From Luminiphilus syltensis NOR5-1B (GTDB taxonomy: Bacteria > Pseudomonadota > Gammaproteobacteria > Pseudomonadales > Halieaceae), in contig NZ_DS999411.1 of assembly GCF_000158175.1 (NCBI RefSeq), positions 1,588,964-1,652,963 of the forward strand: a stretch of 64,000 bases of DNA, given 5' to 3'. The notes beneath the pieces were generated by a model, which was given only the letters and a program-made list of their open reading frames with translations, made no database searches and had not been told where the DNA came from. The translations under genes and the position numbers were made by a program. Shown in pieces: positions 57,222 through 64,000 of this stretch. Positions within the stretch are counted from its first letter, which is position 1. Each line of letters opens with the position of its first letter.

Positions 57222-58628
57222 TCAGCGAATAATCTTTACCCAATCGCCGATACGCGGCTCGCCACTGGGGTAATACCCATTGATGAGGCGCAGTTGGTCT
57301 TCGGCGTTGGAGATGCGAGCGCTACTCGACAGTGTTTCCATCGTGGCTCCCCGAGGTACCTGCACGTAGTGCAGTGTTCGGCTTTCACCGGTGACTCTCT
57401 CACGGGGTGACAGCGGGCGGAAGCTCTCGATAATGGTGGTCAACGCGGGATCATTAGCGGCGAAGTCGTTGCTCGAACCCTCAAACAGATAGCGGTATTT
57501 GTGGTCGATCACGCCGAGGCGCTTGCTGACACCATTGCTTGAGGCGATGGCCGTCGTGCCGGTGAGGCCGAACTTATCCAATTCGCGCAATTCGCTGAGC
57601 TCACCCTTGGCGCCACCCTTCAGCGTTTCTTCGGTGGATAAAGCCTCGTCGCGACGGGTCAGGGTAATCGTCATTTCACTGGTACCGTCGGGAGAGGTTG
57701 CGACTATTGCCTGAGCCCCCGCCTTCACGGTCCAGCCCTTGGGGTGTTCGAAGGTGAATGACAATTTATTGTGGTAATAACGGTTTTCTTCCCCCTGCGC
57801 CTGGGCACTGGCGCCAAATACCATGCCTTCAATCTGACGCCGGAATTCTCCAGGCTGTGCCGGGTCCTCTGCCTGCTCGTCGATATCGAGGGTGTTCGCG
57901 GTGCGGATGACCGTCTGCAGGCGCAAATCATTGCGCGGGTGACTGGCGTACAGTCCGTGATAGGTCCCAGTGGGTTTTCCCGAGGCCTTGGCCTGGGCCC
58001 GCCGGTACATTTCCTGGTCTTTGAGCACCCCAATCACCGATAGCAGGGCATCGGCGTCATAACCGGCGCGGTGCATGAACTCTGCTCCGGCCGCATCGGC
58101 CTCGAGTTCCATCTCGCGCCCGAAACCACTGATCACTTCAGCACCGTACATTTGCGCGGCGTCATAGAGCTCGCCACTACCGGTGAGAATATAGGCGGTA
58201 GTGGACACTACCGTGGACGTCATTTGCTGGGACTTGCGGCGCCCGTGATGATTTTCCGTGATGTGGCCGATTTCGTGGGATATCACGCCGGCCAGCTCCG
58301 CCTCGGTCTCAAGGTAGGCGAGCAACCCGCGATTAACGTAGATGAAACCGCCGGGCAGGGCGAAGGCATTGATGTCCGGTGAATCGAGTAGGGTGAAGGT
58401 GAATTCGGCATCGGGCATGCTCGAGTTGGCGACCAGGCGCTGACCGATCCGGTTGATGTATTCGGCGAGCTCTGGATCGTCGTAGATGCCAATGGAGGCA
58501 AGCAGCTTTTCGTGTTCCTCAGCGGTTACTGAGGGTACTTCAACGGCCCGGCCGCCCACCGATACCGTAGATGTACTTCCGCAGGCGGTTAAGGCCAGGA
58601 CAAAAAATACAGTGAGTAAGCGTGACAT
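57222..58628 (-). CDS. M48 family metallopeptidase lipoprotein
   Basis: A 468-residue protein. It has a lipoprotein signal (VFFVLALTACG), then an M48 peptidase domain with ALPGGFIYVNRGLLAYLETEAELAG and the zinc motif GVISHEIGHITENH, the third ligand region EMELEADAAGAEFM and YASHPRNDLRL. A C-terminal domain from about residue 290 ends in a LysM-like segment (LRLINGYYPSGEPRIGDWVKI). Relatives such as BepA and LoiP do outer-membrane protein quality control. Last gene of the seven-gene minus operon, 1 nt after the previous stop. Confidence 0.9.
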   Translation of the reverse strand: MSRLLTVFFVLALTACGSTSTVSVGGRAVEVPSVTAEEHEKLLASIGIYDDPELAEYINRIGQRLVANSSMPDAEFTFTLLDSPDINAFALPGGFIYVNRGLLAYLETEAELAGVISHEIGHITENHHGRRKSQQMTSTVVSTTAYILTGSGELYDAAQMYGAEVISGFGREMELEADAAGAEFMHRAGYDADALLSVIGVLKDQEMYRRAQAKASGKPTGTYHGLYASHPRNDLRLQTVIRTANTLDIDEQAEDPAQPGEFRRQIEGMVFGASAQAQGEENRYYHNKLSFTFEHPKGWTVKAGAQAIVATSPDGTSEMTITLTRRDEALSTEETLKGGAKGELSELRELDKFGLTGTTAIASSNGVSKRLGVIDHKYRYLFEGSSNDFAANDPALTTIIESFRPLSPRERVTGESRTLHYVQVPRGATMETLSSSARISNAEDQLRLINGYYPSGEPRIGDWVKIIR

Positions 58629-58629
58629 A

Positions 58630-59286
58630 TCAGTGGTTTGCCGACAGGTACTTCAGAAGTTGCTCGCCGAGACTTTCACAGGCCGTATCCTGCACTGGCG
58701 CGATAATGGGAATCGGAACGATGACCGCCGGCATATAACTTTGACCGCTGGTGGAGGCGGCCACGCGGCCGACTTCGGCGCGATCGGTGAAGTTCCAGAT
58801 GGTGGCTTCGTAATCTGAGGCATTACCCCAGGTGCCAAAACCAAAACAGCCGGCGCCACCGGGACCCACGCCGCAGGTCATAGAGCCCGCACTGTTGGTC
58901 TCGATAGTCTTCCCATCAACCCAGATCATGTACTCGAGATCCAGGTCATCAAACCGCTTTGCCACCGGCGGTATATCGGTCAACCGATTGATATCCTGCG
59001 TACGCATCGGCGCGGTTCGCGGTTCGAACCAGGGATAGAGGGAATTGATGAACTCGAGCTCATCGACCACCCGAATCGTCTTATCACCCCGGCGAATGTG
59101 ATCGCCTACGCACTCGATGAAGTCAAACTCGGTGTCGTAATCGGCGGCGTGTCGGCGCCCCAGAATCACTACCGATGCGTCACCCACGCCAGCGGTGGGT
59201 TCATTGAAGGTCATTTCATCGACGGTTGCATTTACGCAGCCGCCGAGAACGACGGTGAGGGCAAGCAGCAGCGTGCGATTCATCAT
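58630..59286 (-). CDS. Uncharacterised lipoprotein (operon gene 6)
   Basis: A 218-residue protein with a clear lipoprotein signal: LLALTVVLGGC. No family recognised. The mature part has a region YDTEFDFIECVGDHIRRG, similar in pattern to proteins that assemble a nucleotide- or sugar-binding beta sandwich, and a Gly/Cys-rich patch GSMTCGVGPGGAGCFGFGTWG. Its start overlaps the stop of the upstream lipoprotein gene. Co-transcription with the VWA genes suggests an outer- or inner-membrane partner role. Confidence 0.7.
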   Translation of the reverse strand: MMNRTLLLALTVVLGGCVNATVDEMTFNEPTAGVGDASVVILGRRHAADYDTEFDFIECVGDHIRRGDKTIRVVDELEFINSLYPWFEPRTAPMRTQDINRLTDIPPVAKRFDDLDLEYMIWVDGKTIETNSAGSMTCGVGPGGAGCFGFGTWGNASDYEATIWNFTDRAEVGRVAASTSGQSYMPAVIVPIPIIAPVQDTACESLGEQLLKYLSANH

Positions 59287-60020
59287 GGCTGGACCTCGGA
59301 TTCAGGTGGTGTACTCTCCATGGGTTCTGGTGGCTTTGCAGGAAGCGTTGCGGCCGCTGCTACGGGAGCGGGCACGGTTTTCGGCCTGTTTGATCGCTGT
59401 TGCAGCCAGTCGTTGACTTCCGGGATTCGCTCAAAGCTGGTGATAAAGTTCGCACCGGCGTCCCTCAGCGCGACGACAGCGGCAAGATTAACGGCCTGCT
59501 CATCGGACTGCAGAAAAGCGGTGGGGGTTTTCCCGTAGGCGGTCAAAGCGAATCGGCTAATCTCCTTGTCCTCTATTGATATGAACTGGAAACCATAGCG
59601 CATCCAGATCTCGTAGATCTTGATGTTGGTATGAAGCGGGATGGTGTATTGCAAATCCTGAATGCTGGGGACGATGACGGCATCCAGCTCTTTACGCCGT
59701 TTCTTCAATTGATCAAGATCGTAAATCCGTATTGTCTTACGGAAAGCGCCTGCAAATAGCTTGTCCCAGAAGGCGACCTGCGCCTCGCCCGTTTTTACCA
59801 GCCACTGAGACTCATTGCGGCCCTTGGCTTCGTCAAAAAACTCGTGGGCCGCAAATTCGTCGGAGTAATAAACACCCACAGTAATCGGCAGGGGCTCGAC
59901 AACCGGTTTCGGAAAATTGCCCTTAACCTGAACCTGCTTGGCGCCACATCCGGCGAGGACCAGCAGGGCGCATAGGGTCGCCAACAGGTTTCTTATCGAG
60001 CAACTAGGGTCTGAAATCAT
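59283..60020 (-). CDS. Uncharacterised lipoprotein (operon gene 5)
   Basis: About 245 residues from ATG 60020 (MISDPSCSIRNLL), with lipobox LLVLAGC. The domain that follows (PLPITVGVYYSDEFAAHEF, IRIYDLDQLKKRRKELDAVIVPSI, IYEIWMRYGFQFIS) resembles ABC-transport-auxiliary or LPS-type lipoproteins that bind a small partner, but no family is claimed. The C-terminus is Pro/Ala-rich (PAPVAAAATLPAKPPEP). The start lies 17 nt inside the end of the upstream VWA gene. Confidence 0.7.
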   Translation of the reverse strand: MISDPSCSIRNLLATLCALLVLAGCGAKQVQVKGNFPKPVVEPLPITVGVYYSDEFAAHEFFDEAKGRNESQWLVKTGEAQVAFWDKLFAGAFRKTIRIYDLDQLKKRRKELDAVIVPSIQDLQYTIPLHTNIKIYEIWMRYGFQFISIEDKEISRFALTAYGKTPTAFLQSDEQAVNLAAVVALRDAGANFITSFERIPEVNDWLQQRSNRPKTVPAPVAAAATLPAKPPEPMESTPPESEVQP

Positions 60021-61002
60021 TGAGGCCGACAAACGTGCCACCGTTTTTATAAGTCAATTCACGCATGAGTGTAGCAAAACGTACACCCGTCACCTGTAAC
60101 TGGGGGGGTCTTATGAACTGTACGGGGAAGCCTACCGCGTGGATGCGCACACGGCGCTCGCCATCAAAGTTTTCACGATTCAGTCGATCGACCGTCAGGA
60201 CCACATCGCGAATGGATTGCCCGGTAAATTCATCACCGAAGACATAGATCGAAATTTTCTTGTCGGGGTCATAGAAACTACGGACCGCGGCAGTGATACC
60301 CTCAACAGGCGAGCTGTTGGAGAACACATTCCAATTGCGCAGATTGCGGAGAATGAGGCTGCGTCGTGCCGGTGTATCTTCAATCCATTGTCCCCGATAG
60401 CGACTGAAGAGATAGTTGCCCATATCGTTCATGACCTGAATCCCCTTCACATTGGGATAGATATTGAGCGTCGCCTCCATTTCAAGCAGCATGCGTTCCC
60501 ACGCGTAGGAAAACATAGAGCCCGAGGTATCGATAATAAAAATGATGTATTCACTGTCTACCGGTATACCGCCAATCAGCTGATTTTTCTTCTCGAAGTT
60601 GCTACCGAGCAGACGTTTCTGCTCATCGGTCAGCCGTTGCCGCGCTATTGCAAGCTCCTGTTTGATAATACTGTTGCTGTTACGGGTCGTTTCGAGGGCG
60701 TCAAAGCGTGATTCAGCGCGAGCTCTTGCACCCTGAAGAATGGCCAGTTTTTCGCGATAGTCAGACAGCTGCTCCTGTCGGGCTGCGAGGTCGCGATTCA
60801 GAATTCGGGTCTCGCCGCGGATTTCGAAGAGTTGTTCGGTCAATTCCGCGACACGGCCTTCGGCAACCACTGTGGATTTTTCCAGGATCTGGGGCTGCAC
60901 GGTCTTGGTGATCATCAACAGCAGGATCACCGCACCGAAGCCGCAACAAATAACGTCAAGGAAGGAGATCGAAAACTCAGGATTGGGGCGACGTTGGCGC
61001 AT
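60004..61002 (-). CDS. VWA-domain protein with MotB/ExbD-like N-terminal helix (second copy)
   Basis: A 332-residue protein. After a short basic N-terminus a single helix reads FSISFLDVICCGFGAVILLL with an intramembrane Asp16, closely parallel to the Asp-bearing helix of MotB, TolR and ExbD. A coiled coil follows (about residues 45-135, VAELTEQLFEIRGETRIL), then a von Willebrand factor A domain from about residue 152 with MIDAS motif IIDTSGSM (Asp158, Ser160, Ser162). The second VWA strand region includes IYVFGDEFTG. It is 11 nt downstream of the paralogous VWA gene. Confidence 0.85.
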   Translation of the reverse strand: MRQRRPNPEFSISFLDVICCGFGAVILLLMITKTVQPQILEKSTVVAEGRVAELTEQLFEIRGETRILNRDLAARQEQLSDYREKLAILQGARARAESRFDALETTRNSNSIIKQELAIARQRLTDEQKRLLGSNFEKKNQLIGGIPVDSEYIIFIIDTSGSMFSYAWERMLLEMEATLNIYPNVKGIQVMNDMGNYLFSRYRGQWIEDTPARRSLILRNLRNWNVFSNSSPVEGITAAVRSFYDPDKKISIYVFGDEFTGQSIRDVVLTVDRLNRENFDGERRVRIHAVGFPVQFIRPPQLQVTGVRFATLMRELTYKNGGTFVGLNDFRP

Positions 61003-61013
61003 ACTTACTCCAC

Positions 61014-62105
61014 CTACGGCCAGTCACTGGAGGGGCTCATGAAAGAGCCTCCCGTAACGCCAGCGAGCTGCCAGAACTCGGATGCGGCCATGGGGTCTCC
61101 TTCCATTGGCGCAAGAACGATATTGACCGGGACGCCCTGGGGCAGCTTGCGAACCGCCTGGCGAAACAGGCGGAGGCGGTCGTTGCCACTCACGGTGGTG
61201 CTGTTGGGAGGCGAATCACCCTGGGTTGGCAGGCCGTCGGTAATCAGGAAAATATTGTCCGGTGAAGGCGTGAGTTGCCCGAGCGCATCAAAGGCGTTGT
61301 GGAGCGAGGTTCCGCCTGCGGGCAATGTCGCCCGCAGCGCTTGCGTGGCGGCTTCCAGGCGAGGGGTGTCGGCGACTTCCAGCCACTGACCCGGGCCTTG
61401 GTCGTTAAGAAAGGTAGTTTTGGTATTGAAGCCGATGAGCTGGATGCGGGCATTAATCGGCAACTGGGCGGTCAGCCAATCAATGGTATCGAGGGTGCGG
61501 ACCCACTTCGCCGCCTCTCGCTGCACGTTTTCCTGCATATTGCGCAGGCGGATAACGTTGACTAACTGATCTGACAACATGCTCGCTGAGGTATCGACCA
61601 GAATAGCGATATGGTTGCCTCCGAGGTTGAGTCCGGTCAGGTACTGCCGATTCCCTTCGCCGACAAATTCGCGCGCGCTCCGGCCCGCTTCGCTATCCGC
61701 AGCCTCCTGCAGTTTTTTGACCTCTTCCTGCAGACGATTTACTTCGGCCTTCAGTGCCTCGACATCGTCATCGGTGGTGTAGCCGTCGGCTTCCAGGGAG
61801 GCAATCAAAGCCTCGTAATCATCGATTTCCTCGGTCACACGTCGGGCCCGGCCCTGGGTTTCTACAATATCGTCATCGATGCCTTCCAGCGCATTGCGAA
61901 GACGCACCAGACCTGCCTCGCCCTCGCGAATATCCTCATCGAGCAGATTGATTTCGGAGAGTACTTCGGCATTGAGCGTTTTGCTCTCGACTTCCATCGA
62001 ATGGTCGATGATCAAAAACACCAGCACAACGGCACCAAAGCCACAGGACATGATGTCCAGAAAGCTGAGGTTGAATGTTGAGGCCTGGCGCTTCTTACGC
62101 GGCAT
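61014..62105 (-). CDS. VWA-domain protein with MotB/ExbD-like N-terminal helix (first copy)
   Basis: A 363-residue paralogue of the downstream protein: FNLSFLDIMSCGFGAVVLVF with Asp17 in the helix. The CGFGAV block is shared by both copies. Residues about 43-140 form a long acidic coiled coil (VEALKAEVNRLQEEVKKL). The VWA domain starts near residue 164 with MIDAS ILVDTSASM (Asp171, Ser173, Ser175) and has IFLITDGLPTQGD later. Divergence outside the helix and MIDAS suggests separate roles, perhaps a heterodimer. The ATG lies 1 nt after the upstream stop. Confidence 0.85.
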   Translation of the reverse strand: MPRKKRQASTFNLSFLDIMSCGFGAVVLVFLIIDHSMEVESKTLNAEVLSEINLLDEDIREGEAGLVRLRNALEGIDDDIVETQGRARRVTEEIDDYEALIASLEADGYTTDDDVEALKAEVNRLQEEVKKLQEAADSEAGRSAREFVGEGNRQYLTGLNLGGNHIAILVDTSASMLSDQLVNVIRLRNMQENVQREAAKWVRTLDTIDWLTAQLPINARIQLIGFNTKTTFLNDQGPGQWLEVADTPRLEAATQALRATLPAGGTSLHNAFDALGQLTPSPDNIFLITDGLPTQGDSPPNSTTVSGNDRLRLFRQAVRKLPQGVPVNIVLAPMEGDPMAASEFWQLAGVTGGSFMSPSSDWP

Positions 62106-62106
62106 G

Positions 62107-63348
62107 TCAGTCTTCTACACGAACCAGACGGGCTTCGACGTCGCCATTGCTCAGTACGTCGCCGAGGCGCAGAGTTTGCCCGGGTTCTGCGCGCGCTCCA
62201 TTCACCTCCAGTGTTGCGGGCACCGGGCCGTCCAATATCAGCTGCTTGCCGTCGGCTTGCTTGATGGCCGTGCCGAATAACGCCAGTTCACAACCGAGCG
62301 CTCGCGCCGTGTCCTCAGATAGCAAATGCGTTGCCAATACCCCGGCTTGCTCGATATCTGCAGGGGCTTCGAGGGAAGTGCCCTCGACGTGTCTGCCGCT
62401 GATGGGCACGGCCCGCTGAAAGCTGAGACTGTCCGCGGGCTGTCGCAGTTCTGCCATTTTTTCTTCGATCACCTCCGGCAATGCCTGCTCCCCTGGCAGT
62501 ACGGTGGGGAACGGCAGGCTGAAGCCAGGGATCATGCCGAGAAGCGAATCGAGCACGATGGTCTCGGAATCCTCGGGAATCAGTGTGGCGATCGCTGTGG
62601 ACAATTCCTGACCAATAGACTGAAGGTCTTTCGCGGTAATCCGTGCCTGATAACCGTCTATGGTGAGCCTGGCCTCGCCGCGTTGTTTGATGTCCGCCAG
62701 CAAATCGAACAGCGCATCAAAAAGCGTTTGCTCGCTGGCGGCCTTGCGCTGCGGATCAAAACGGGTCTGCTCGACAAAGCGACCGGCGATGATCGACGCG
62801 AGGCGGTCCTGAAGCGCGAGTAGACCGCGTCCTGGTAATTGCTGCGATTCACCGGCGTGGCTGACACCCTTGCGGCGTTCGGTACTGGTGACCAGCGTCT
62901 GGTGCAATTGCAATTCCACATGCGGCGACCGCGTGGTACCCAGCGCGGCGGAAAATAGTGCACTGCGGTGGATAATAGCCTCGATGCTGAAAGGCAATGT
63001 ACCGGCGATACCCAGGAGCAAAGACAACTGCGCCCGAGACATACTTCCAGGGGCGACAATAACCACTGAATCGGGATGTCCGGCGGCGGCATATAGTGAC
63101 TTCAGATGACCGTGTACCAGGTCGGCGGTGTGGCGCGCGGGTCCCAGCGCCGGTGTCAATGGATCGGTACTCAGCTGCCACCAGTATCGGGTATTGACCG
63201 ACCGCGGCGTAAGCCGGGCGGTGCGCGCGGCCGCCTCACCGTAATGATAGTGGCCCCCGTCGAACCAGGCGTAGGCTGGAGAGCGTTCCCAGTGGTCGTT
63301 GGACCAGCAACCCAGAGTGGCATCATTGATATCGATAATGGCAGTCAT
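62107..63348 (-). CDS. Uncharacterised protein, possible Hsp70/actin-fold ATPase
   Basis: A 413-residue protein with no family recognised for certain. The N-terminus (MTAIIDINDATLGCW...GEAAARTARLTP) and the central VVIVAPGSMSRAQLSLLLGIAG...IEAIIHRSALFSAAL resemble the ASKHA nucleotide-binding pattern of Hsp70-like proteins, where a strand is followed by a helix contacting a second lobe. The C-terminus (NGARAEPGQTLRLGDVLSNGDVEARLV) looks like a small beta domain. It overlaps the TolQ-like gene by 4 nt and is adjacent to the VWA genes, so it may power or assemble that complex. Function unproven. Confidence 0.5.
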   Translation of the reverse strand: MTAIIDINDATLGCWSNDHWERSPAYAWFDGGHYHYGEAAARTARLTPRSVNTRYWWQLSTDPLTPALGPARHTADLVHGHLKSLYAAAGHPDSVVIVAPGSMSRAQLSLLLGIAGTLPFSIEAIIHRSALFSAALGTTRSPHVELQLHQTLVTSTERRKGVSHAGESQQLPGRGLLALQDRLASIIAGRFVEQTRFDPQRKAASEQTLFDALFDLLADIKQRGEARLTIDGYQARITAKDLQSIGQELSTAIATLIPEDSETIVLDSLLGMIPGFSLPFPTVLPGEQALPEVIEEKMAELRQPADSLSFQRAVPISGRHVEGTSLEAPADIEQAGVLATHLLSEDTARALGCELALFGTAIKQADGKQLILDGPVPATLEVNGARAEPGQTLRLGDVLSNGDVEARLVRVED

Positions 63349-64000
63349 GAGCGCGGTACTGCGAGATGACGTAATAACTTGCGGTCAATGTAACGCTGCG
63401 TATTCAGTACCAGTCGTTCCTGGGAAAGCTGGAGTTGATACAGCGCGAACATAATGATGATGCTCAACACCAATGCCACGAAGGTGCTGTTGAAGGCGAC
63501 ACCCAGGCTGACAGTCACGCCCGAGATATCGCCCTCCACTGCCTTGTAGGCCTGTCCCAGTGCGTCGCCGATGCCGCGCACCGTGCCGATAAAGCCGATT
63601 GAAGGAATCGCCCATGAAATGTAGCGCACCATCGACAACTCCGAATCGAGACGATCGGCTTCGATATCACATTGTTCCCGCACAGCCTCCGAGACTGCAG
63701 TGATGCTATTGGTTGTCGTAAAGCGCTGGAGCGCATTGAGCAGCGCGCGAGGTAGCAGGAAGTCCTGCTCCTCATCGGGCAGGACCTCGAGAGAACGGGA
63801 GTATTCGCGAGCATCCTGTGGTAACAGCGAGGTGCCTTCGGGGATTTCGACGAGTGAACGCTTGAGCATGGCCTGCTCATTGCGGGTGCGATAGGCCTTG
63901 TGCCCCATAATCGCAAGCGCCCATAACAGGAGAATGAAACAGGCCTCCTGTTCGAAATCCCGAATGACGATCGACAACGTTCGTTCGGGCACAAAATCCT
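63345..64000 (-). CDS. MotA/TolQ/ExbB-like proton-channel protein (5' end outside window)
   Basis: At least 215 residues; an in-frame GTG at 63992 exists, but the frame stays open to the edge (…DFVPERTLSIV), so the true start is probably outside. Three helices are visible: about residues 14-32 (EACFILLLWALAIMG), 126-142 (ISWAIPSIGFIGTVRGI) and 165-190 (SLGVAFNSTFVALVLSIIIMF). The second and third carry the family signature (APxIGLLGTVxGI-like and a GxAxxxTxxxLxxxIxxM-like helix), as in the TolQ/MotA stator. The Hsp70-like gene overlaps its stop by 4 nt. Confidence 0.85.
   Translation of the reverse strand, partial: DFVPERTLSIVIRDFEQEACFILLLWALAIMGHKAYRTRNEQAMLKRSLVEIPEGTSLLPQDAREYSRSLEVLPDEEQDFLLPRALLNALQRFTTTNSITAVSEAVREQCDIEADRLDSELSMVRYISWAIPSIGFIGTVRGIGDALGQAYKAVEGDISGVTVSLGVAFNSTFVALVLSIIIMFALYQLQLSQERLVLNTQRYIDRKLLRHLAVPRS

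Follow-up and report, generated by a model that had tools for sequence, protein, structure and literature searches.

A putative stator-type cell-envelope motor with paired VWA proteins in Luminiphilus syltensis and its relatives

A window of 64,000 nucleotides from Luminiphilus syltensis NOR5-1B (bases 1588964-1652963 of its genome, which consists of one contig of 3.26 Mb) ends within an operon that encodes a channel subunit of the MotA/TolQ/ExbB family and two proteins with VWA domains, VWA1 and VWA2. The operon probably specifies a stator-type motor that sits in the inner membrane, is powered by protons and works with the VWA pair in the cell envelope, and we put the probability of this reading as a whole at about 65%. 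Its central part, a motor with a VWA axle, appears likely from the comparison of sequences. Replacement of ExbD, TolR or MotB by the VWA pair as the axle is the most likely explanation because VWA1 and the channel co-occur strictly, an aspartate in the VWA proteins is invariant, and the channel has no ExbD partner. A survey from 2025 (Mol Biol Evol, msaf138, PMC12204202) describes, in its section on such proteins, vWA proteins tethered by a transmembrane helix (TMH) that co-occur with tolQ homologues, with no tolR or exbD. According to the same section, these vWA proteins mostly occur as heterologous pairs, and AlphaFold 3 (AF3) places their conserved aspartate in the threonine ring.

The channel gene occupies positions 63345..64000 of the window on the minus strand. 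It is cut by the window edge; its true start lies outside, at a position equivalent to 64154, and the full-length protein has 269 residues. The TolQ/MotA signature that had been noticed in a sequence-only reading of the window is borne out by matches to PF01618 with E-values of 2e-14 to 3e-14 (2.9e-14 for the full protein). A HMMER alignment places Thr191 (codon 63582..63584) and Thr224 (codon 63483..63485) onto Thr145 and Thr178 of TolQ (8odt), which we take to be the pore threonines, and both residues are invariant in 26 of 26 relatives. The channel scores 29.7 bits against the TolQ equivalog model, the cut-off of which is 221 bits. In a tree of 89 channel proteins, the channels of VWA operons fall into one clade (support 95/94) and five related channels into a second (95/95). 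Support for joining these two clades is weak (83/56); a larger clade that includes both and the channel of locus L242 (100/98) is separate from ExbB/TolQ and MotA. The tree was built from few columns (94) and rooted at its midpoint, its bootstrap had not settled, and long branches meet in it. In known motors of the MotA/TolQ/ExbB family, five channel chains surround two axle helices. The label "5TM-2TM", under which the channel had been described in the sequence-only reading, is therefore inaccurate.

The genome of L. syltensis contains five channel-family genes (PF01618) and four ExbD genes (PF02472). The other four channel genes are located at three places, each with an equal number of ExbD-family genes, so that the channel of the VWA operon is the sole one in the genome without an adjoining ExbD. 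A search of the whole genome with PF02472 at an E-value of 0.001 identified four loci, none of them in the operon, and the family is absent from the 25 best matches listed for VWA1 (of 39 families) and from the six listed for VWA2. The MotB plug domain (PF13677) had no match in the genome at the same threshold; the MotB search covered this genome, and the ExbD comparison extended to the 110 related loci introduced below. None of their operons contains an ExbD-like gene, and the five loci that have one carry it at least 7 kb from VWA2. In the same genome, two ExbB-family and two ExbD-family genes stand side by side (G000:C1:913788-915554), a set that we presume to be TonB2/TtpC-like.

VWA1 (61014..62105, minus strand) and VWA2 (60004..61002, minus strand) share an architecture of a membrane helix, a coiled coil and a VWA domain. 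VWA1 matches PF13768 with an E-value of 2.6e-7. The window copy of VWA2 is by itself below the Pfam cut-off (E 0.28), and its assignment as a VWA protein comes from its relatives, a structure model and a profile comparison. Among 25 VWA2 relatives searched at a lax limit of E 10, matches to PF13519 were obtained for 23 (best 1.2e-4) and to PF00092 for 16 (best 3.2e-6). The profiles of VWA1 and VWA2 are homologous over their length (hhalign E 9e-29). An AlphaFold2 (AF2) model of VWA2 with a pLDDT of 77 contains a helix formed by residues 14-33, a long helix formed by residues 44-122, and a VWA domain (about residues 150-330), which resembles that of the calcium-channel alpha-2/delta subunit (8if4_A, Z 17.6 over 164 residues). 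A sequence search of the PDB with VWA2 returned coiled-coil and weak integrin matches. Both VWA proteins had thus been recognised correctly from the sequence.

The N-termini of both proteins contain basic residues followed by one predicted membrane helix, which spans residues 15-33 of VWA1 (62007..62063, from hydropathy) and residues 14-33 of VWA2 (60904..60963, from the AF2 model and hydropathy). Near the start of this helix, as had been claimed for both proteins, is the aspartate that we propose to be the proton carrier: Asp17 of VWA1 (codon 62055..62057) and Asp16 of VWA2 (codon 60955..60957). It is invariant in 109 of 109 readable VWA1 and 107 of 107 VWA2 proteins, collected with a pattern that allowed any residue at this position and with L063 left out. 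Of the helix motif FLD-x3-CGFGAV in the sequence-only reading, FLD with its aspartate is present in both proteins, and the CGFGAV part is less strict: CGFGA varies, and among the six loci read from family f208, for instance, VWA2 has SAFAA in five. The metal ion-dependent adhesion site (MIDAS) is intact in both copies, as had been predicted, with DTSASM at residues 171-176 of VWA1 (61578..61595) and DTSGSM at residues 158-163 of VWA2 (60514..60531). The DxSxS pattern is kept in 109 of 110 VWA1 proteins, 12 of which read DxSSSM or DxSTSM, and in 106 of 107 VWA2 proteins, the remaining one belonging to L110, where the contig ends before the motif.

The distribution of the genes was determined in a class sample of 369 genomes and a phylum sample of 398 genomes. 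VWA1 was found in 31 of the 369 class genomes, and a channel profile matched the identical 31 genomes at E-values of 3e-98 or better. The rows of the profile came from 26 of these genomes, and G213, G217, G290, G312 and G317 matched independently. Six further class genomes gave weaker matches (E 1e-22 to 1e-30), and none of the remaining 338 class genomes matched at clade strength. A channel without VWA genes in most relatives, the outcome singled out in the sequence-only reading as fatal to a coupled channel, did not occur. In the phylum sample, 17 of the 398 genomes matched; 15 of them were counted, 12 of which belong to one family (f208) outside the class, and the partial matches of G379 and G568 were left out. 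The host family, which we took as Halieaceae, has the system in 57 of 61 genomes and in 47 of 49 good ones. This near-universal presence makes the operon look like a housekeeping system rather than a phage defence.

We compared 110 loci, 30 from the class sample and 80 from a collection of named genomes. At least 591 of 596 candidate stretches in the collection encode relatives; the best 80 were used, which lean to close relatives. The 110 loci are not independent, and some are short. The closest named relatives among these 80 stretches are Halieaceae such as Luminiphilus and Halioglobus. VWA2 follows VWA1 in 105 of the 106 loci with enough sequence, and the exception, L063, has VWA1 in fragments. 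In 89 of 92 loci, the channel gene precedes VWA1 at a distance of at most two genes. Of the other three, L051 and L052 carry it directly behind VWA2, and for L049 it was located on a different contig of the genome.

The distance from the aspartate to the MIDAS is nearly fixed, at 154 residues in VWA1 (48 of 93 loci) and 142 residues in VWA2 (64 of 93). Six f208 loci, L054 and L055-L057 have both arms shortened, to 132-139 residues. L053, the closest channel relative of L054, has the long form (153 and 142), and therefore the shortening in L054 and that in L055-L057 look like separate events. Across the 93 loci, the lengths of the two arms are correlated (Pearson 0.79, Spearman 0.50, kinship not corrected). 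Judged from these sequences, joint shortening fits two arms that lie side by side, and a heterodimer of VWA1 and VWA2 is somewhat favoured. The main competitor is that one operon builds two machines, one from the channel and VWA1 homodimers and the other from the channel and VWA2 homodimers. Coils that differ by about 12 residues between the aspartate and the MIDAS in most loci would suit it, and the only two related operons visible far enough, those of L237 and L239, show a single VWA gene, so that a homodimer can suffice. The constant succession of VWA1 and VWA2, the shortening of both arms together in separate lineages, and the heterologous pairs that are also reported in the part of PMC12204202 dealing with these proteins make the two-machine alternative unlikely.

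The window contains seven genes of the operon, all on the minus strand, with spacings of 1-11 nucleotides or short overlaps. All seven had been recognised at these positions as one unit in the sequence-only reading; the natural unit differs, since the operon comprises at least 13 genes, six of which lie past the window edge, again closely spaced or slightly overlapping and in the same orientation. Gene starts beyond the edge were taken as the first possible ones, and lipoboxes were judged by eye. In the direction of reading, the six genes, identified as open reading frames on the minus strand upstream of the window edge, encode a TPR protein of 492 residues; a Ser/Gly-rich lipoprotein of 383 residues and lipoprotein A of 400 residues, both with a lipobox; a membrane-anchored TPR protein of 511 residues (hydropathy); a membrane-anchored PEGA-FGE protein of 706 residues, in which five PEGA stretches are combined with a domain of the FGE-sulfatase type; and, before the channel gene, a 105-residue protein with an N-terminal hydrophobic stretch (hydropathy). 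At least 8.5 kb of upstream sequence is available in 76 loci, and these contain the genes of the PEGA-FGE protein, the TPR protein and the Ser-rich lipoprotein in 75 cases each and that of lipoprotein A in 73. The conserved core of the operon consists of the serine-rich lipoprotein, lipoprotein A, the TPR and PEGA-FGE proteins, the channel, VWA1 and VWA2.

Downstream of VWA2, all on the minus strand, are the genes of three accessory proteins: lipoprotein B (59283..60020, with an uncertain start at 60020 or 60041 and a lipobox LVLAGC recognised by eye), lipoprotein C (58630..59286, an open reading frame) and an M48-family metallopeptidase (57222..58628, PF01435 E 6.2e-36), the start of which appears lipobox-like by eye. 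These two lipoproteins and the peptidase are where the sequence-only reading had placed them, yet they are limited to certain lineages. Among 87 loci with at least 5.5 kb of downstream sequence, a set rich in close relatives, lipoprotein B is present in 76, lipoprotein C in 72 and the M48 gene in 67. In the 30 loci of the class sample, which include some short contigs, the corresponding numbers are 10, 8 and 7. Other neighbours vary. In L042 (14441-19115), L044 and L045, the operon directly precedes a yebC-ruvC-ruvA-ruvB-ybgC-tolQ-tolR run and is thus next door to Tol-Pal; these gene names were assigned by inspection of the sequences. In L043 (4570-11881), a set of MoxR, DUF58-like, VWA, VWA-TPR and BatD-like genes, also named by inspection, follows soon after VWA2 on the same strand.

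The gene between those of the channel and VWA1 (62107..63348, minus strand) encodes a protein of 413 residues for which an Hsp70 fold had been suggested as a possibility. An AF2 model with a pLDDT of 87.5 confirms the suggestion: residues 1-300 match the nucleotide-binding domain of 4kbo with a Z-score of 25.6 and a root-mean-square deviation of 2.7 over 298 residues, at 14% identity. PF00012 has no match in the window copy at an E-value of 0.01, and it matches one of 14 members at 5.6e-4. The phosphate-binding motifs presumably are absent, as far as can be judged by eye, and hydropathy indicates no N-terminal hydrophobic stretch. The gene precedes VWA1 in 83 of 92 loci and is missing in several lineages (L046, L047, L055, L056 and six f208 loci); a candidate in L056 proved to be a false assignment located away from the operon. 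An FHA domain is present in four of 14 Hsp70-fold relatives according to Pfam, at the C-terminus in L059, and not in the window copy.

Domains of Ser/Thr phosphorylation recur in relatives of the operon. In L040, L048 and L050, the TPR protein has an N-terminal Ser/Thr kinase domain (PF00069 E 5e-41, 3e-30 and 4e-29), and a home-made kinase profile adds L150 and, weakly, one open reading frame of L126, the position of which was not assigned. A Pfam scan detected no kinase domain in the TPR protein of L. syltensis itself. The related channel type occurs in five of the 369 class genomes. At L237:8078-17952, the related channel is accompanied, according to Pfam, by an FHA protein, a PP2C phosphatase, two FHA-trypsin proteins, a kinase-PEGA protein and one VWA protein, the helix of which follows the pattern SALD-x3-S-x2-GA. 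At L239:5122-8883, there are a VWA protein of the SALD pattern (Pfam), an FHA protein (home-made profile) and a PP2C-like protein recognised by eye. The contigs of L238, L240 and L241 stop short of the expected VWA gene. L242:1-2513 encodes a distant channel relative of 629 residues. The B-like protein encoded beside it gave no match to VWA; its helix is of the form GIPFVDMLISMIGALIF (FVD-x3-S-x2-GA), and, from its sequence, this protein is possibly a third kind of axle.

We speculate that VWA motors form a family of machines that span the envelope and are controlled from the cytoplasm through Ser/Thr phosphorylation, with phospho-binding starting or stopping the proton motor. This tentative proposal is based on the kinase-TPR fusion, the FHA domain on the Hsp70-fold subunit, and the operon that combines kinase-PEGA, PP2C and FHA proteins with a single VWA axle. 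We know of no such start or stop control in the Tol, Ton or Mot motors. The kinase, phosphatase and FHA genes would also suit a signalling complex. In that case the channel homologue would serve as a scaffold or a gated ion channel and do no motor work, and the role of the VWA heads would be limited to sensing in the periplasm. No report of conduction or movement was found for any member in the open-licence PMC literature, and the relevant section of PMC12204202 calls the function of the VWA proteins unknown. Against a scaffold or sensor stands the invariance of both pore threonines and both aspartates, as in known motors, and we consider it improbable.

It is also conceivable that the VWA proteins bind to the side of the channel and transduce force like TolA or TonB, while another B subunit fills the pore. 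The first vWA family described in PMC12204202 is of this type. According to the section in question, however, many of its members have an SHLS motif, and those of the PVC group are encoded near tolR-like genes. The predicted VWA helices of the window lack histidine and have the invariant aspartate; moreover, the operons include no ExbD-like gene, and each of the four ExbD genes of the genome adjoins its own channel gene. Therefore, side-bound transducers are very unlikely here.

The motor with the VWA pair as its axle was also evaluated by comparison of the short membrane helices. Segments from 52 VWA proteins, 29 of 33 ExbD loci and 15 of 20 MotB loci were aligned with hhalign after those with a wrong frame or motif had been dropped; all segments were cut around their aspartate, and the MotB rows include near-copies. 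The VWA helix aligned with MotB helices over 21 columns, aspartate on aspartate, with a pairwise E-value of 0.0029, which was equalled by two of 100 column-shuffled controls. ExbD and MotB gave an E-value of 2.1e-5 in the same test. The helix is too short for firm homology, and the likeness to MotB is suggestive. Several results weigh against a VWA axle and the motor as a whole. The hhalign score of the VWA helix against ExbD was reached by 11 of 100 shuffled controls, and when a profile of the VWA helix was run against 12,955 frames, neither ExbD nor MotB appeared among the 45 best matches listed outside the VWA proteins, none of which was significant. The similarity of the channel to PDB entries is weak (TolQ, E 0.02). 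In L121, the channel, the Hsp70-fold gene and the VWA pair are present, but all four core genes that should lie upstream are missing, and the VWA1 protein of L049 is the one in 110 that lacks the first MIDAS aspartate. The correlation of arm lengths depends on few lineages and is not corrected for kinship. The coupled channel of the sequence-only reading is supported in part, by gene co-occurrence, the aspartate in the helix, the threonines and the lack of ExbD or TolR in the operons; the comparison of the VWA N-termini with MotB and ExbD that had been suggested as a check yielded a suggestive likeness to MotB and, for ExbD, nothing better than shuffled sequences.

By its features, the operon belongs to the TPH-vWA/TolQ-like motors, the second vWA family of PMC12204202. 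In agreement with the description in its section 8, the proteins have a C-terminal VWA domain and an N-terminal helix with a conserved aspartate, the neighbouring gene is tolQ-like, tolR and exbD are absent from the cluster, and two different VWA genes are present. The pore threonines also agree, with Thr191 and Thr224 identified here by alignment only. Membership is judged from this list of features; the query used in PMC12204202 came from Idiomarina. The replacement of TolR by a VWA protein was thus predicted in print in 2025, and the belief expressed in the sequence-only reading that no known system has this layout does not hold: its core idea is correct, but had appeared in print before as a prediction. 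The lipoproteins and the TPR, PEGA-FGE, Hsp70-fold, M48, kinase and FHA parts are not mentioned for the second vWA family in the text of section 8. The present analysis adds the list of parts, a count that shows strict co-occurrence, the observation that both arms are shortened together, the family-wide presence and the kinase/FHA link; searches of the open-licence PMC literature found no earlier description of these five.

The operon shares with TolQR and ExbBD the PF01618 channel, the two pore threonines and an aspartate near the start of the single helix of the B subunit. It differs in that this subunit has, in place of the PF02472 periplasmic domain, a coiled coil with a VWA head. With MotAB, it has in common the helix register, aspartate on aspartate, and the position of its channel clade on the MotA side of ExbB/TolQ in the midpoint-rooted tree, whereas the MotB plug has no match in the L. 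syltensis genome. The Gld motor of type IX secretion and gliding (GldKLMN) is genetically tied to an FGE-domain protein. The FGE part of the PEGA-FGE protein resembles GldK (111.5 bits, E 5.8e-32), but the score is far below the NCBIfam GldK equivalog cut-off of 350 bits, and in the operon protein a membrane anchor and PEGA repeats precede the FGE domain; no search was made for GldL and GldM. Zorya (ZorAB) similarly combines a MotA-like channel and a B subunit with accessory genes, and it differs in its axle, which is of the ZorB type and not a VWA protein. An anti-phage system of this kind is hardly credible, because defence genes usually spread patchily and the operon is present in 57 of 61 family genomes, and because a PADLOC scan of seven of the 13 operon proteins gave, apart from a weak match of ZorA to the channel (E 0.027), matches of the VWA1 and VWA2 coiled coils to coiled-coil parts of LmuB, PbeC, JetC and DruC (best LmuB, E 1.8e-4). 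Membership in the flagellar, Ton, Tol or Zorya systems was rejected, as PF02472 was not found in the operon nor PF13677 in the genome, and among the seven proteins scanned the weak ZorA match was the only one to a Zorya model.

Based on these comparisons, a mechanism of the VWA-axle motor can be proposed. Five channel chains would surround one VWA1 helix and one VWA2 helix. Protons passing Asp17 and Asp16 between the threonine ring would turn or tilt the pair, and the shared coiled coil, about 79 residues or roughly 12 nm long in the VWA2 model, would transmit the force in the direction of the outer membrane. There, the VWA heads may grip a partner through their metal site. The best candidates for this partner are lipoprotein A and the Ser/Gly-rich lipoprotein, the acidic C-terminal segment of which is conserved, and binding of a lipoprotein by the MIDAS is a possibility that we put forward with reserve. 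In L007 (16275-17426) and its relatives, the Ser/Gly-rich lipoprotein looks disordered and is variable outside the conserved C-terminal segment, which is close to DDDIVARQLREAA-x-E-x-DP-x4-KLW-EYRKYK and is a candidate hook for the VWA head. The membrane-anchored TPR and PEGA-FGE proteins may frame the machine, which would be regulated by the Hsp70-fold protein and, in some relatives, by Ser/Thr-kinase and FHA domains.

The family-wide presence of the system, its probable outer-membrane lipoproteins, the PEGA and FGE domains, and the M48 peptidase in many relatives point to the outer envelope. By analogy with Tol-Pal, the best candidate role of the motor is to maintain or remodel the outer envelope as a matter of routine, although this is a tentative assignment, and gliding, secretion and adhesion are possible alternatives. 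As far as we found, what has been published on motors with a VWA axle is a short prediction in a single paper, PMC12204202, the relevant section of which gives neither a list of partners nor a phenotype. The locus described here and its relatives provide a probable parts list and a strict pairing with the channel, and the link to kinases, phosphatases and FHA domains suggests how such a motor might be controlled. In Halieaceae, which include cultured marine strains, the system is nearly universal and open to deletion and testing.

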